Translations under genes and position numbers: made by a program | Shown here: one piece after another, positions 1,099 through 12,889 of the stretch | Layout of the letters: each line of letters begins with the position of its first letter | How positions within the stretch are numbered: the stretch's first letter is position 1 | The notes under the pieces: generated by a model | Databases searched by the model: none | The model's input: the letters and a program-made list of their open reading frames with translations, nothing else | What the model was told of the DNA's origin: nothing | IMG/VR virus record: IMGVR_UViG_3300003324_000863 | Coordinates: 745 to 64,744 of that record | Reading direction: 5' to 3' (one strand) | Length of the DNA: 64,000 nt | Source of the DNA: a virus

Positions 1099-2490
1099 CT
1101 ACCCGTAGTACCCCCAGTTGTGGATGCGGAGTTCTTTTGGGTAGTCGGGGCACCCATCCCAACAGCCGAGATGCTCGTACTTCTTGCAGGTACAGGACAC
1201 CTTCTGTCCTGTGGCTGTACTCTGGACTGCTGCTTGAGCCGAAGGTCCACAGTCCTTGTCGCACGCCTCGCCGTAGTGGGCAGCGCAGTCGGTCTTGTGT
1301 CCTTGAACATACCGGTAGGTCTTGTGGTAGTTGGCGCCTCCACTCGTCGGCGCGGCCGGCTTCTTCTCCTCGGCTGCCTTGGCGGCCTTGGCTTCGATGA
1401 TGCGCTTGGCCGCCTCGAACCGGGGGCGGGTGACCTGAGAGCGGGCGATCTCCCTCACCTCCTCGTCGGCGAACGCAGCCGCCATCTCCTTCTCCAGGTT
1501 CTCCAGGTACTCGAGCTGCTTCTTGCTCTCGACTGCCTCCTCACAGTAGTCATCCCGGATCTGGAGGATGGCCTCGTGTGCTCCGTATCCCCCGAGACAG
1601 ATGAGAAGCGAGGAGAGTCCGGTGCCGGTTCGGCCGTGTCCCCCAACACAGCAGAGGGTGACCCGGCCTTCGAGCTTGCCATGCCGGTCGATGAGGAGTT
1701 CCTTGATCCGTACCCAGAGGGCCAGCCAGAAGGGAGCGCCGACGGGGGGGATGCCCTGGTCCGGCCACTTGAACTTGATGAGGGCGCCCGGCTCCTTGGG
1801 TCGAGGGACCAGGACGTTCAGCGCCCGGAACTGCTCTGGTCCGGTGAGGACGAACTTGTCCGGGTCCTTGCCGAGGGAGTAGGAGTCAGCGAAGTCCAGC
1901 ACCACGTCCGGCTCGTAGTCCATGTCCAGGTTCGCGGCCTTCGACCCGGAGAAGACGACGTCCCCGATCTTGAAGACCAGGTCCAGGTCCGAGCCATCGT
2001 GCGGCCCGCTGCAGTTGGCCTTGTAGCTGTACCCCGTGCCCCCCGTGTAGCTCTGTCCTGTCCCGGTCACCTTCCCCTCCGTCTCCGGCGCCTTTACATC
2101 AGACGCCACTGTGCTCTCCACTCCCGCCTCCGTCCCGATGATCGTCTCTCCGTAGAGGTAGGTTGCCTGGTCGGGGTCGATGAAAGCGGCCTGGCCGAAC
2201 TTCTCGAAGATGAAGTCGTACCACCAGTCATCAGTCAGCTCGTCCAGGTTCTGGTCCTCCAGCCACTTGATGTACTCGTTGTACAGGCTGTCATCGACGG
2301 CGTCGAACTGGAACTCTGGCTTCAGATCATCGTGACCTAAGAGGTAGCCCGGGTACGTCTCTTCATCCTCGTCTTCCCAGTCATCATCGTCTGCTGCCAG
2401 CTCAGCTTGGACCGCACCGACGTCCCCATCGAGGAAGAGGAGGGCATCGGACTGGGGCTTCGGCTTCCCCTTAGTCTTCGTCTTCTTCAT
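1099..2490 (-). CDS. Cys-X5-Arg phosphatase-like protein with Cys-rich tail
   Basis: About 463 residues from ATG 2488-2490 (MKKTKTKGKPKPQ), with GAGGAGGAAG upstream; a farther in-frame start would lie deep inside the previous gene. The centre carries CCVGGHGRTGTG, the HCX5R(S/T)G P-loop of protein tyrosine/dual-specificity phosphatases, followed by a helical segment (LSSLLICLGGYGAHEAI) as in that fold. The N-terminal third is acidic. The C-terminus is Cys/His-rich (DCAAHYGEACDKDCG and CTCKKYEHLGCWDGCP), probably zinc-binding. It overlaps the large upstream gene by 20 nt, so the two are probably translationally coupled and may act together. Substrate unknown; the phosphatase call rests on the motif. 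Confidence 0.75.
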   Translation of the reverse strand: MKKTKTKGKPKPQSDALLFLDGDVGAVQAELAADDDDWEDEDEETYPGYLLGHDDLKPEFQFDAVDDSLYNEYIKWLEDQNLDELTDDWWYDFIFEKFGQAAFIDPDQATYLYGETIIGTEAGVESTVASDVKAPETEGKVTGTGQSYTGGTGYSYKANCSGPHDGSDLDLVFKIGDVVFSGSKAANLDMDYEPDVVLDFADSYSLGKDPDKFVLTGPEQFRALNVLVPRPKEPGALIKFKWPDQGIPPVGAPFWLALWVRIKELLIDRHGKLEGRVTLCCVGGHGRTGTGLSSLLICLGGYGAHEAILQIRDDYCEEAVESKKQLEYLENLEKEMAAAFADEEVREIARSQVTRPRFEAAKRIIEAKAAKAAEEKKPAAPTSGGANYHKTYRYVQGHKTDCAAHYGEACDKDCGPSAQAAVQSTATGQKVSCTCKKYEHLGCWDGCPDYPKELRIHNWGYYG

Positions 2491-5215
2491 CCGCTTCCTC
2501 CTCCTCGTCGTCGTCTTCATCCATCTGGGGGCAGCAGTCCTCCGAGGTGCAGTCCCAGCAGAGGAGCTCGCCGCAGTGGTCACAGGAGTGCTGCCAGTCC
2601 ACCATGCCGTTCCCGCAGAGGACGCAGTGGTACTGGTACTCCACTTCCTCCTCGGACTCCTCGTACTCCGGGACGGGCTCGACGATCTTGGTGTCTGGGA
2701 TAAGCTGCTTATTGCAGGAGTCCTCCCCGATCAGGCAGCAGGACTCCGGTGCCGTGTAGGCAAGGCAGTTCTCGTGGATGTTGCCGACCCGGATATCCCC
2801 GTCGACCACCGGCAGCTGCTTGTACGTCATCTTGGAGTGGGCCAGGGACTTGATGTGGTCCAGAGCCAGAGCCTTCAGGTAGCTCTGGCAGTTGTCGCAG
2901 ACCCCAATGTCGTCGAGATTCACGTTGACTGCCGTGTACCCCGGCTCTCCGCCCCGCTTGTACTGGATGTGGACGAAGCCCTGCTCGGGCACCCACCGTC
3001 CCTGGGCGTAGGTCACCGGCGGCAGGGTCACCACCGTCGGCTCGGGCTTCGGCGCCTGGGCAAGGATCGCCTTGGCCAGCTCACCCACGGTCATTCCCAC
3101 GGTTCCTGACTGGGGTGGCGCCGACATCTTCATGGCCGCTTCGTACTTCTTCTTGTTGGCGGCGATGAGCTTCGCCTCGTACTCTGCGTGGGCCTTGGCC
3201 TGCTTCTCCAGCTCGACCTGCTTGCGGTACTCATGATCTCGGATGATCCGCTCGGTCTTGGGATCGGGCACCCAGGTCGGGACAGTGTGCATCTTGCCGA
3301 GCACCGAGATCACCCGGTCTCCCATCTCGAAGACCGTGCCGTCCCGCCGCAGCCGCTCCGCTTCCCAGATGGAGATCGCTGCTCGGGCGGGCACGATGGG
3401 ATGGCCCTGGGCTGCGAGGTCGAAGGTGTGGCCGTGGGCCCACTTGTTCAGCCACCAGCCCCCGTTGTGGACCTGGTCGACGGCGACGTTGAGGGCCTTG
3501 GCCAGGCCGTCCACCTCCAGCTTCCCCGTAACGAAGTCCCGGATGGCCTGGTCGACCTGGAGCGTCGCCACCGCGCAGTCCTTCCACCGCCGACCGCCGA
3601 TGGACCCCGCTCCCCAGGGGTACTTCTCAAAGATCCATCGGGCCCGCTCCAAGGCCTGCCGTCCCCCGAACGGAGACCGGAAGCTCTCCGTGTACACCTC
3701 CTCCCGCGTCCGCTCCCGCCGGGCCAGCCGGGCATGCCGTGCCTCACCGAGACAGGCCGCCGATCCGTACCGCAGGATCATGGCCATGGCATAGCCGATG
3801 TGGTACGTATCCTGACCGCGGAGGAGGCCGGAGTTGTGGGCTGCCCAGACCAGGTGGTTGATCTTCGACGCATGGCCAACGTATGCCGTGCCCTGATCGT
3901 AGTCCAGCTGCTTCTTGATGTGCTTCAGGTCCGTCATGAAGCCGGCGACCAGTCCATCCAGTGCCGCCTCCCTGCTGTAGGGCTCGAGATCGAACGTCGG
4001 TTCAAGCACGTCTCCGACCTGGGGCTCGAAGCTGATGACGATCGGGATGCGGGACGAGAGACAGTGGGCGCCGTAGTGGGTCGCCAAGCTGCCGCCTGGG
4101 TGGTAGACCACGGTACCCGGCTCGAACTCCTTGACCTTCCGCTCCCATTCGAGGAGGTCACCTGACGCTTCGACGACGTGCTGGACGGTCATCTTCTCGG
4201 GGATGTAGTCCCGCTTGCCCTCGGCCTTGGGCCCGGCCCGGAGCTGGACGAACTTGGCGCCCCCGTTCTCGTCGATGACCACCTCGAAGTAGGGATGCTC
4301 ATCGGCCACGTCCACCCCGGCGTTCTTCATCCGGTGGGCATGCTCGATGTGCCACTCGGATGCCTGGGGTAGGACCACCGCACCCTTCCCACTCGTCGCC
4401 CCGTCGTGCCCGGGTCCGATGGTGAGGAGGTTCGGGGTCCAGACCACGTTCAGCTGCGCATTGACCGGCGGCATGAGGATCAGCTCAGCCTCGGGGTCCT
4501 CGGCCAGTGCCTCCTCCAGGACCTTGACCGCCTCGTCTGCGGTCTTCACCTTCCGGCTATCGACGAAGCCGTGGCGTGGCCGAGTGGGGGCAGGCCGGGC
4601 GAACACCTCACCGATCGGGTTCTTGAACCGCCCCGACTTGTGATGGAAGGCGAAGCGCACCCCGTCCGCATCCTGGGCCACGACGTAGCTCAGGGTCGGG
4701 AGGCTGAAGCCAGGGAGCTGGGGCAGCCCCTTCGCCTTCTGGGTACGGAGCCGCTTGGCATCCGTGTACACCCCGTAGGCCTCGGGATCATAGACCCACG
4801 CCTTCGGCACCTCGACCCTGGGTGCAGAGCTGACCCCCGTTCCGCCGACCGAGGAGCGGAAGACCCCCAGCATCTCCTCGAAGCTGATCGCCTTCGGCGC
4901 GTCCAGGGTAGCGGGGATCTCCGCCCCGATCTCCACCTGAGGGGACTCCTCTAGGGCATCGTCGGAGACAGGCACGATCCATTCCTCCTTGTACCCGAAG
5001 GCCGTAGAGGAGTAGTAGGTAGGGTCCTCCCCCGGGTCAGGGATAGGGGCCGGCTCGGGCCACGTCACCTGGTAGTCGTAGAAGCCTCCGGGCTCGAGAA
5101 CGTTCGCCACTGTACCGACCAGGTGATCCGGGGGGCAGTTGGCGCCTGAGTTGGGGTTGACCTTGACCTTCATCCCAACCTTCAGCTTGGTCGGCGTGTC
5201 AACGAGTGCTGCCAT
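2471..5215 (-). CDS. Large protein with PEP-synthase-like phosphohistidine swivelling motif
   Basis: 914 residues. The N-terminus (VGMKVKVNPNSGANCPPDHL) looks like an SH3/KOW-type barrel. Mid-protein, LLTIGPGHDGATSGKGAVVL and AKFVQLRAGP recall the end of an ATP-grasp-like dikinase unit. PGGSLATHYGAHCLSSRIPI then matches the GG-x-(S/T)H-x-A-x-x-(A/C)R-x-x-x-IP signature around the phosphohistidine of PEP-utilising enzymes, with the His kept. A long helical, charged region follows, then C-terminal CxxC zinc ribbons (CVLCGNG, CDHCGELLCWDC) and an acidic tail. No complete PEP-synthase catalytic domain is evident, so the reaction is unknown. ATG at 5215 has CCTCCTTT (plus strand) as its SD. It overlaps the phosphatase-like gene. 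Confidence 0.72.
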   Translation of the reverse strand: MAALVDTPTKLKVGMKVKVNPNSGANCPPDHLVGTVANVLEPGGFYDYQVTWPEPAPIPDPGEDPTYYSSTAFGYKEEWIVPVSDDALEESPQVEIGAEIPATLDAPKAISFEEMLGVFRSSVGGTGVSSAPRVEVPKAWVYDPEAYGVYTDAKRLRTQKAKGLPQLPGFSLPTLSYVVAQDADGVRFAFHHKSGRFKNPIGEVFARPAPTRPRHGFVDSRKVKTADEAVKVLEEALAEDPEAELILMPPVNAQLNVVWTPNLLTIGPGHDGATSGKGAVVLPQASEWHIEHAHRMKNAGVDVADEHPYFEVVIDENGGAKFVQLRAGPKAEGKRDYIPEKMTVQHVVEASGDLLEWERKVKEFEPGTVVYHPGGSLATHYGAHCLSSRIPIVISFEPQVGDVLEPTFDLEPYSREAALDGLVAGFMTDLKHIKKQLDYDQGTAYVGHASKINHLVWAAHNSGLLRGQDTYHIGYAMAMILRYGSAACLGEARHARLARRERTREEVYTESFRSPFGGRQALERARWIFEKYPWGAGSIGGRRWKDCAVATLQVDQAIRDFVTGKLEVDGLAKALNVAVDQVHNGGWWLNKWAHGHTFDLAAQGHPIVPARAAISIWEAERLRRDGTVFEMGDRVISVLGKMHTVPTWVPDPKTERIIRDHEYRKQVELEKQAKAHAEYEAKLIAANKKKYEAAMKMSAPPQSGTVGMTVGELAKAILAQAPKPEPTVVTLPPVTYAQGRWVPEQGFVHIQYKRGGEPGYTAVNVNLDDIGVCDNCQSYLKALALDHIKSLAHSKMTYKQLPVVDGDIRVGNIHENCLAYTAPESCCLIGEDSCNKQLIPDTKIVEPVPEYEESEEEVEYQYHCVLCGNGMVDWQHSCDHCGELLCWDCTSEDCCPQMDEDDDEEEEADEEDED

Positions 5216-5266
5216 GCGTCCTCCTTTCGTCGCATCACTTCACTCCGCGTCAGCGGAGAGCGGAGA

Positions 5267-5634: not shown

Positions 5635-6447
5635 CTACGGGGTGAAGGTGTGCGTCTTCCCACGAGCGAGGGAGTAGAGCTGAACCCTATCTTTGGTGTT
5701 AGGGCACAGCCGTTCCCCGATCTCCAGCACTGCCTTGAGGGCGCCGTCGGTGAGAGGGAAGTTGTAGCTGGTGGGGTAGGTGGGATTAGCTAGCATATTT
5801 TCAGCCCGGATCAGTAGAGATCGGGCGATGATGCCGAGCACGTCTTTCCCCATACCGTATCTCTTCCGGAGTTCCTCCTCGAATGGCCGCAGCCCCTCGA
5901 CGATGCACCTGGCCAGGGCCTCAGCCTTCTCCTCGATGGTCTCACCCACCGGCGTGCTGGTCCAGGGATCGAGCCACTCGGGCTTGTAGTAGAGCTTGAG
6001 GTTCGGGGTATATCCCATCTTGGTGCCCGTCAGTGGGTGGTGGGTCTGTGGTGTCTCAAACTCCACAATGATGGGATTGAAGGGATGCGGGGTGTCCTGA
6101 GGATTGAACCCGGTGACCTTGCCCCTGATCTCTGGATTTCCATGTCCCTCCCTGGTCCGGACCTCGTCCCCGATCTGGAACCCTCCGGTTACCAGCTCCG
6201 GCGTCTCTTCCTGCGGAGCAGCCAGCTCCAGCTCCCAGTCGTAATAGTGGTCCTCGTCCTTGCCCTCCTTCAGCCAGTAGGGCGTGCCTGATGCAGTCCC
6301 GTAGTGGCCGTTCGGCTGGTCCCACTTGACAAGGAACAGGCCATCGTAGATTTCCGCGGTCACCATGCCGAGGGTCTCGGGGCTGACGACGTGGTGCCCG
6401 TCGAGCTGGTTCGCCTTGAACCTGACCTTGTCTCCGACCTTGAACAT
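5635..6447 (-). CDS. Protein with two SH3/KOW-like modules
   Basis: 270 residues. Two similar units begin FKVGDKVRFKANQLDG and FQIGDEVRTREGHGNPEIRG, each followed by strands ending in a W-D/E segment. This is the pattern of KOW or Mib/Herc2-type SH3 barrels, which usually bind protein or nucleic acid. The C-terminal 100 residues are helical (IEEKAEALARCIVEGLRPFE). ATG at 6447 has AGGAGGAG upstream. The same 'VGD+V' style recurs in the 914-residue protein and in 9603-9740. Function unknown. Confidence 0.72.
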   Translation of the reverse strand: MFKVGDKVRFKANQLDGHHVVSPETLGMVTAEIYDGLFLVKWDQPNGHYGTASGTPYWLKEGKDEDHYYDWELELAAPQEETPELVTGGFQIGDEVRTREGHGNPEIRGKVTGFNPQDTPHPFNPIIVEFETPQTHHPLTGTKMGYTPNLKLYYKPEWLDPWTSTPVGETIEEKAEALARCIVEGLRPFEEELRKRYGMGKDVLGIIARSLLIRAENMLANPTYPTSYNFPLTDGALKAVLEIGERLCPNTKDRVQLYSLARGKTHTFTP

Positions 6448-11692: not shown

Positions 11693-12889
11693 CTAACTCC
11701 CCAAACCCGGGCCAATCCGTGCCTGGAGTCCTTCATCTTCCGAACGATCTGACCCAGTACCCGACCCACTATCTGACCCAGTATCCTGACCCAGCATTCG
11801 GTTCATCGACTCCGCGACGCGCTGCCGGCTCTCGTCGTACCAGTGACCATACAGGTTCGCCGTGAGCCCGATGTTCGAGTGCCCCAGCGTCCGTGCCACA
11901 TCATTCAAGGATAGCCCCGAGGCCAGGAGAAGGGACGCCGCCAGGTGTCTCAGGCCATGGAAGGTCTGCCTGGGGAGCCCCGCCTTCCTGAGGATGTGCT
12001 GCATGTGCTTGGTCATCATCGCGGGGTGGATCGGCTTCCCCCGACGCACCCCACGGAAGAGCAGCTCGTCCTCCGACTCGGGGTGCCGCTTCTCCTTCAG
12101 CTTTACCAGCAGATCCCAGGTGAGCTTCGGGAGTCCCACGACGCGCCGGCTCCTCCGGGTCTTGGCATACTCCTTGACGACGAACTCCTTGTCGATCAGG
12201 TGCATCGTCCGGTTCACGGAGACGGTCCCCTTCTCCAGATCAATGTCCCGCCAGGTGAGAGCCCGCGCCTCCGCGGAGCGTAGCCCACAGGTCGCAGCGA
12301 TCACGTAGCACAAGCCCAGCCAGTCGTCTTGGATCACGGCAAGGAACTTCCGTGCCTCCTCAGGCGTCAGGGGCTTCATCTCCTTTCCCTTGACCTGGGG
12401 CGCCTCTGCCAGCTTCGCCACGTTCCGGGTCACCACGCCCCACTTCAGCGCGTGGTTCAGGGCCATCCGCAGGACCGCGCGGTGCTGGCCGATGGTCGAC
12501 TTCGCCAGGCCCCACTCGAGCTTCTTGGCAATGTAGGTCTCGACGTGGAGGGGCGTCAGCGCCCGGAGCCGGTACGCACCCAGCCCCGGGATGAGGTGGT
12601 GGGTCACGATGCTGGAGAAGGTCTGGTAGGAGTTCGCCTCGACATGGTTCTTCCGAAGGGCGAGCCAGTCCGTGAGGAAGTCGGCCAGGGTCGGGTCTTC
12701 ACTCAGCTCGCCCTGCAGCTCGGTCGGCGGCGTTCCCGTCCCCGCCCGCAGCAGCTCGATGGCCTGGTGGGCCTCCGATTCCGTCCGCCCGTAGACCGAG
12801 TGGAGGGTACCCCCGATCGTGATCCGACCTTCATACCGCCCATCCGGCCGGAGGCGAACGCTCCCTGTGCCCTTAGCCCTCCTGGCCAT
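11693..12889 (-). CDS. int: Tyrosine integrase
   Basis: 398 residues. An N-terminal AP2-like segment (RLRPDGRYEGRITIGGTLHS) and SAM-like core-binding helices precede the catalytic domain. Catalytic residues fit the family: Arg in GLRSAEARALTW, Lys in the beta hairpin KTRRSRRVV, HGLRH, and His in LGHSN with the nucleophile Tyr in LTANLYGHW. It would splice the phage into a host site. The C-terminus is extended by a Gly/Ser/Asp repeat (GSDSGSGTGSD). Its start lies 17 nt inside the DGQHR gene upstream, so they are probably co-translated. The att site is not identified. Confidence 0.93.
   Translation of the reverse strand: MARRAKGTGSVRLRPDGRYEGRITIGGTLHSVYGRTESEAHQAIELLRAGTGTPPTELQGELSEDPTLADFLTDWLALRKNHVEANSYQTFSSIVTHHLIPGLGAYRLRALTPLHVETYIAKKLEWGLAKSTIGQHRAVLRMALNHALKWGVVTRNVAKLAEAPQVKGKEMKPLTPEEARKFLAVIQDDWLGLCYVIAATCGLRSAEARALTWRDIDLEKGTVSVNRTMHLIDKEFVVKEYAKTRRSRRVVGLPKLTWDLLVKLKEKRHPESEDELLFRGVRRGKPIHPAMMTKHMQHILRKAGLPRQTFHGLRHLAASLLLASGLSLNDVARTLGHSNIGLTANLYGHWYDESRQRVAESMNRMLGQDTGSDSGSGTGSDRSEDEGLQARIGPGLGS

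Follow-up and report, generated by a model that had tools for sequence, protein, structure and literature searches.

Glucan water dikinase adds phosphate, and the DSP glucan phosphatases of the PTP superfamily (SEX4, laforin) remove phosphate, which offers a working analogy for the two phage genes described here, although that is a plant/algal starch system and no carbohydrate-binding module was detected in the phage pair. The best structural match of the larger phage protein is the enzyme type represented by pyruvate phosphate dikinase (PPDK) and PEP synthase (1dik; TIGR01828; PF01326, PF00391), which has the same order of an ATP-grasp domain followed by a swivel domain; the phage protein, however, lacks the PEP/pyruvate TIM barrel, and its swivel is cut to about 60 residues that Pfam does not recognize. 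Rifampin phosphotransferase (RPH; 5hv2, 5fbs; PMC4844700) shares with it the ATP-grasp and phosphohistidine swivel fold and key Lys, Arg and His residues, the counterparts by role being Lys22, Arg117 and His825 of RPH, and possesses a third, non-PEP-barrel domain that binds the acceptor, a role that in the phage protein would fall to a domain that we call REARH. The order of domains differs, being ATP-grasp, swivel and REARH in the phage protein but ATP-grasp, rifampin domain and swivel in RPH, and no phosphatase partner has been described for RPH, unlike the phage pair. HpeHI is a known two-component dikinase with split domains; it is spread over two genes, as the dikinase half and REARH gene of isolated phages may be, but it is split between ATP-grasp and swivel, uses aromatic compounds as substrates and has no PTP (PMC12167813).

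The window, the whole stretch of DNA analysed, comprises 64,000 of the 66,169 bases of an IMG/VR virus record, and its source is judged to be a tailed phage, probably able to integrate, because it encodes portal, tape measure, minor tail, integrase, helicase and DNA polymerase genes. The gene pair lies on the minus strand. A 914-aa dikinase-like phosphotransferase gene (2471-5215), with the ribosome-binding site AAAGGAGG at 5220-5227, encodes ATP-grasp, His swivel and REARH domains with accessory ends; the following gene (1099-2490) encodes a 463-aa protein with a PTP-type phosphatase domain. The ATG of the latter, at 2490, lies inside the 914-aa gene and is preceded, still within that gene, by the ribosome-binding-site-like GAGGAGGAAG (2494-2506), rated good. 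A preliminary description of this DNA had reported the 914-aa ORF, the 20-nt overlap and three motifs in the protein, all of which are present. We put at roughly two in three the probability that the two genes constitute one phage module, in which a predicted phosphotransferase of the dikinase type, equipped with a new acceptor domain, is accompanied by a phosphatase that takes off or processes the phosphate. The pair is probably an unrecognised phosphate-on/phosphate-off device.

Domains of the large protein

Searches of Pfam, PHROGs, NCBIfam, PADLOC and PDB sequences gave no confident match for the 914-aa protein. PF01326 and PF00391 did not match it, and only one of 31 relatives weakly matches PEP-utilizers (E 0.012); the family profile found nothing in the PDB. 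A comparison of eight proteins with PADLOC-DB 2.0.0 was also empty, although a system missing from that library could still act in defence. By hhalign the family is only weakly similar to phage PPDK (E 0.011, probability 3.7%), with His380 paired with the phage PPDK histidine. Since Pfam and NCBIfam are silent, the profile comparison is weak and the PDB profile search was empty, the dikinase reading was settled by structure, and homology rests on the predicted structure together with the residue pattern.

An AlphaFold2 model of residues 150-690, built with 30 relatives, has a mean pLDDT of 83.4 and a pTM of 0.83. VIA-align superposed it on PPDK 1dik (Z 14.3, 246 residues, rmsd 3.8 Å, chain 6-502) and on rifampin phosphotransferase 5hv2 (Z 14.2, 237 residues, 3.4 Å), both alignments spanning ATP-grasp and swivel jointly (model 1-261; residues 150-410). 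Carbamoyl-phosphate synthetase, synapsin, Ddl and succinyl-CoA synthetase reached Z 11.2 or less, mainly over the ATP-grasp part. Foldseek alone ranked D-Ala ligases above PPDK, whereas the aligner that scores the whole chain placed PPDK and RPH first. An ATP-grasp peptide ligase of the R2K kind (PMC4431377) was considered and rejected, the invariant swivel histidine arguing against it.

The model contains a reduced ATP-grasp domain (about residues 150-330; 4226-4768) with K160, R207, E311, Q324 and R326, assigned on the model, the structure alignment and conservation, and a small phosphohistidine swivel (about residues 345-405; 4001-4183), identified from the model, the structure alignment and the hhalign pairing with the phage PPDK His motif. 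The equivalence of the ATP-grasp residues (Lys, Arg, Glu, Q-x-R) was assigned from motif order and spacing. Alignment of the model to PPDK and RPH bears out the swivel-type phosphohistidine domain proposed in the preliminary description, and FEPGTVVYHPGGSLATHYGAHCLSSRIPIV is part of that swivel. LLTIGPGHDGATSGKGAVVL, LLTIGPGHDGATSGKG and AKFVQLRAGP (FVQLRAGP) lie in the ATP-grasp domain, not the swivel; the preliminary description was incomplete, leaving the ATP-grasp domain unnamed and missing the conserved domain at residues 411-644.

When the 914-aa protein and the phosphatase were used singly as queries, scans of viral contigs returned no relatives. A tblastn search of annotated phages supplied the first relative, in podovirus MW202572 from Manatee Spring, where neighbouring genes that overlap encode relatives of the two proteins; alignments derived from it reached many metagenomic phages. 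Relatives were recovered by pattern scans built from alignments of short conserved stretches. K160, R207, Q324, R326 and H380 are conserved in 100% of 57-65 distinct sequences and E311 in 98%, with one exception; the retrieval patterns lay around TQKAKG, RPCPxxPRHG, MPxVNAQ and HNNGxxFNK, so conservation there is partly built in, which affects K160 in nine loci and R207 in many, while E311, Q324, R326 and H380 lie outside all patterns. His380, the predicted phosphocarrier (codon 4076-4078), is invariant in 65 of 65 distinct relatives.

By fold and residues the modelled protein belongs to the wider PPDK/RPH superfamily. It is neither PPDK nor RPH, because the defining domain of each is missing: a Pfam search found no C-terminal PEP/pyruvate-binding domain PF02896, and there is no rifampin-binding domain between ATP-grasp and swivel, the swivel following directly after ATP-grasp. 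Instead, the REARH domain (residues 411-644; 3284-3985) occupies the position that the acceptor domain has in known dikinases, and we infer from this position that it receives the acceptor. It is homologous to a separate protein of about 340 residues in isolated phages, phrog_20946 (hhalign E 1.7e-13, probability 98%). Predicted alone, it is confidently all-helical (pLDDT 89.4, pTM 0.89). Compared with the PDB, the model scored no better than noise: the highest Z was 6.2, for a designed protein, and Foldseek gave E values of 0.27 or more. This leaves a new fold unproven, and REARH does not match the rifampin domain. Its invariant residues are E491, R493, R504, G540-G541, H583-N584 and K591 (E-x-R, Arg, GG, HN, Lys). 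An Arg-Glu pair in the acceptor domain of RPH is essential for the second transfer (PMC4844700), and by analogy the invariant REARH Glu and Arg would suit that role.

The two ends of the protein are accessory. An SH3-like N-terminal extension (about residues 12-83; 4967-5182) was recognised by eye and has no Pfam match; a Cys-rich, zinc-finger-like C-terminal tail (about residues 855-900; 2516-2653) gives a weak EEA1 FYVE match (E 0.085). Both were features of the preliminary description, but they are not general to the family: extensions of 100 aa or more occur at the N terminus of 11 of 66 relatives, at least two CxxC follow the core in 6 of 66 fusions, and 23 of 71 phosphatases have a Cys-rich tail. 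An SH3/zinc device as the function was set aside, as the SH3 and zinc-like parts are not conserved. The start of a 270-aa gene upstream (5635-6447, minus strand) resembles the SH3-like start (FKVGDKVRF against LKVGMKVKV), and BLASTP was not significant.

The phosphatase and its linkage to the large protein

The 463-aa protein carries CCVGGHGRTGTG and is placed by its sequence in the Cys-based class I PTP superfamily, with predicted phosphatase activity. The PTP domain (about residues 165-335; 1486-1998) was defined by conservation and the family profile, with D244 in the WPD loop, C281-X5-R287 in the P loop and E321/Q325 in the Q loop. The single sequence gave a weak PTP-type match in the PDB (E 3e-4); the family profile matched receptor PTP epsilon at E 1.5e-13, spanning the WPD, P and Q loops, with 232 PDB sequences under 0.01, so that the Cys-X5-Arg phosphatase suggested earlier is now tied to the classical PTPs. 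Most family members match PTP-SAK, Y_phosphatase or Tc-R-P. They share the catalytic core, WPD loop, C-X5-R and Q loop of the PTP-SAK, Tc-R-P and classical PTP families (PF22784, PF22785, PF00102) but differ in that the usual HC signature is replaced in most by another residue and C, and in the linkage to a dikinase-like gene. D244, C281, R287 and Q325 are invariant in 71 phosphatase sequences. Retention of the conserved His and Cys in relatives, one of the points on which the preliminary description could have failed, was thus found for both proteins, and such constancy, over 65 distinct relatives for His380 and over 71 for the Cys and Arg of the phosphatase, means that the motifs are not chance.

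The gene pair, sought in other phages as had been proposed, recurs in more than 60. Pattern scans found the fused gene, with REARH in the same chain as ATP-grasp and swivel, in three bacterial genomes and at about 62 distinct loci of viruses, which form 42 clusters at 50% identity. A PTP is on the same strand in 62 distinct virus-contig fusion loci and directly downstream in 61 of them, the commonest arrangement being a 4-nt overlap. A phosphatase gene neighbours the fusion gene everywhere except in the truncated L064, which ends within the fusion gene, and in L088, where the PTP genes are on the other strand; in L038 and its copies the PTP is just upstream. In the three bacterial-genome loci (one Chloroflexi, two Acidobacteriota) the PTP is right behind the fusion gene. 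The identities of fusion and PTP are correlated (Mantel r 0.73; the highest value among 2000 shuffles was 0.13) at median pairwise identities of 29% and 28%, respectively; as shared whole-phage ancestry contributes, this co-variation shows long joint inheritance rather than contact.

A third conserved partner gene was sought in the neighbourhoods and none was found beyond lineage-specific synteny. Small genes for the RapZ C-terminal domain (PF22740, E down to 2e-21), which has its own CxGGxHRS loop, recur near the module in seven loci (L091:8085-8540, L020:9628-10134, L015:5617-6072; related in L014, L016, L048 and L080). The two Acidobacteriota loci have similar genes of about 185 aa just upstream of the fusion gene (L116:6320-6877 and L117:7291-7851; YPVYYTGLIGITP / YPVYFEGTIEVSP). 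One locus (L088:1564-3533, minus strand) stands alone in being divergent: two PTP genes in tandem run on the strand opposite the fusion gene, at a distance of 1.1 kb. The window has a tRNA-Gln at 211-286 and an integrase (phrog_1) at 11693-12889, and the Chloroflexi contig (L115) has, near the module, a tRNA-Gln (3423-3495) adjoining a possible phage integrase ORF (3566-4480); this recurrence of tRNA-Gln and integrase suggests that the attachment sites are tRNA-Gln genes and that the host may be related to Chloroflexi.

Strict pairing, co-variation and the lack of any other conserved partner gene would also be expected if the PTP regulated the kinase itself, acting on its His or an auto-phosphorylated side chain, so that the sole partner of each protein were the other gene product. 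Nothing, however, singles out the kinase as PTP substrate, and the usual substrates of PTP-type enzymes are phosphotyrosine, phosphoserine/threonine and phosphate groups on lipids, RNA or glycans; we regard such self-regulation as improbable. It is still harder to credit that both proteins have lost catalysis and act as binding or structural components. Their activities are predictions and the sequence has drifted beyond Pfam detection, yet none of the key ATP-grasp, swivel and PTP residues varies, against an average identity of about 29% elsewhere in the proteins. A module of active phosphotransferase and phosphatase remains our preferred reading.

Cultured phages with a split module

Isolated Vibrio, Stenotrophomonas, Rhizobium and Rhodobacter phages encode a split version of the module. 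In Stenotrophomonas phage Summit, Rhodobacter phage RcZahn and Vibrio phage MS01 the gene order is 'pyruvate phosphate dikinase', PTP and REARH protein, and all three clusters are close to DNA polymerase. The RcZahn cluster has terminase on one side and polymerase/portal genes on the other; in MS01 polymerase and portal genes come after the cluster. Among 40 phage records with a REARH match the dikinase gene is present in 39, the fortieth being a 5.8-kb fragment; the distance between dikinase and REARH genes is 1.2-2.3 kb in 36 of the 39, and in the other three, from permuted genomes, only the ends of the record come between the two genes. Summit and RcZahn have a second PTP after the REARH protein; there is no second PTP in the window's record. 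This second PTP is labelled 'thymidylate synthase' in phrog_17568 (e.g. L002:7626-8408) and in the DLP3 and DLP5 records, but by its sequence and motifs it is a PTP-type phosphatase. The genome reports, among open-access papers, give the genes separately and none connects them: the DLP3 record names four consecutive genes, dikinase, PTP, hypothetical protein and 'thymidylate synthase', and does not remark on them (PMC7326821), and the vibriophage 'PPDK' was published as a glycolysis gene with the PTP listed apart (PMC9229204, PMC12038007).

That published annotation, with its docking, together with the match of the phage proteins to the first 530 positions of TIGR01828, favours a true glycolysis helper interconverting pyruvate and PEP, of which the window protein would be a relic. 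The phage 'PPDKs' match PF01326 and PF00391 strongly, and one of them gives a sub-threshold match to GWD1_pHisD (E 0.06). A Pfam search found no PF02896 in them, however, and their coverage of TIGR01828 ends at about position 530 of 865, with scores under the curated cutoff. Because the PEP/pyruvate-binding domain is missing, the glycolysis reading of these genes (e.g. L002, L003, L004) appears doubtful. Nor is the window protein a relic, because it has REARH instead of that domain and its catalytic residues are invariant. As an account of the module, a glycolysis helper with a decayed relative is very unlikely.

Another reading is a same-direction biosynthesis, in which the kinase would activate a small molecule or nucleic-acid group and the PTP would remove a phosphate later, with no switch. 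Both RPH (PMC4844700) and HpeHI (PMC12167813) have small-molecule substrates, the isolated-phage genes are placed between those for terminase and those for DNA polymerase/portal, and some clusters have two different PTP genes. No third biosynthetic gene, however, is common to the neighbourhoods and the pair alone is conserved, and we consider this pathway unlikely, though it deserves more weight than self-regulation of the kinase.

A proposed route for the phosphate

In the module that we favour, the ATP-grasp domain would pass phosphate from ATP to His380 on the swivel, with AMP leaving, as in PPDK and RPH. The swivel would then carry the phosphate to an acceptor bound in REARH, which stands where PPDK has its PEP/pyruvate barrel and RPH its rifampin-binding domain. 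The PTP encoded downstream may remove that phosphate or trim the phosphorylated product, a direction that we take from the arrangement of the pair. It is likely that ATP-driven phosphorylation of His380 and transfer to the REARH acceptor take place, catalysis being predicted from the residues; we are less sure that the PTP reverses phosphorylation on the same acceptor, since it is the linkage of the genes from which we infer that kinase and phosphatase act on the same bond.

Reversible phosphorylation, which the preliminary description had also proposed, is the simplest reading of such a pair, but nothing found in this analysis points to the host proteins or nucleotides that it named as targets. 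A more specific version, in which the REARH dikinase phosphorylates a macromolecule of host or phage, be it a protein, RNA or a cell-envelope glycan, and the dedicated PTP dephosphorylates it as a reversible switch, is put forward only tentatively.

The function is directly testable because cultured Vibrio, Stenotrophomonas, Rhizobium and Rhodobacter phages carry the module. The two genes, or three parts where split, would represent a widespread phage module that is unnamed in curated libraries. The vibriophage glycolysis 'PPDK' is without its PEP/pyruvate half and would belong to this module instead. The dikinase superfamily would gain in REARH an acceptor domain, as judged by its position, not seen before and, if the macromolecular switch is true, a new class of macromolecular kinase that uses a phosphohistidine swivel.
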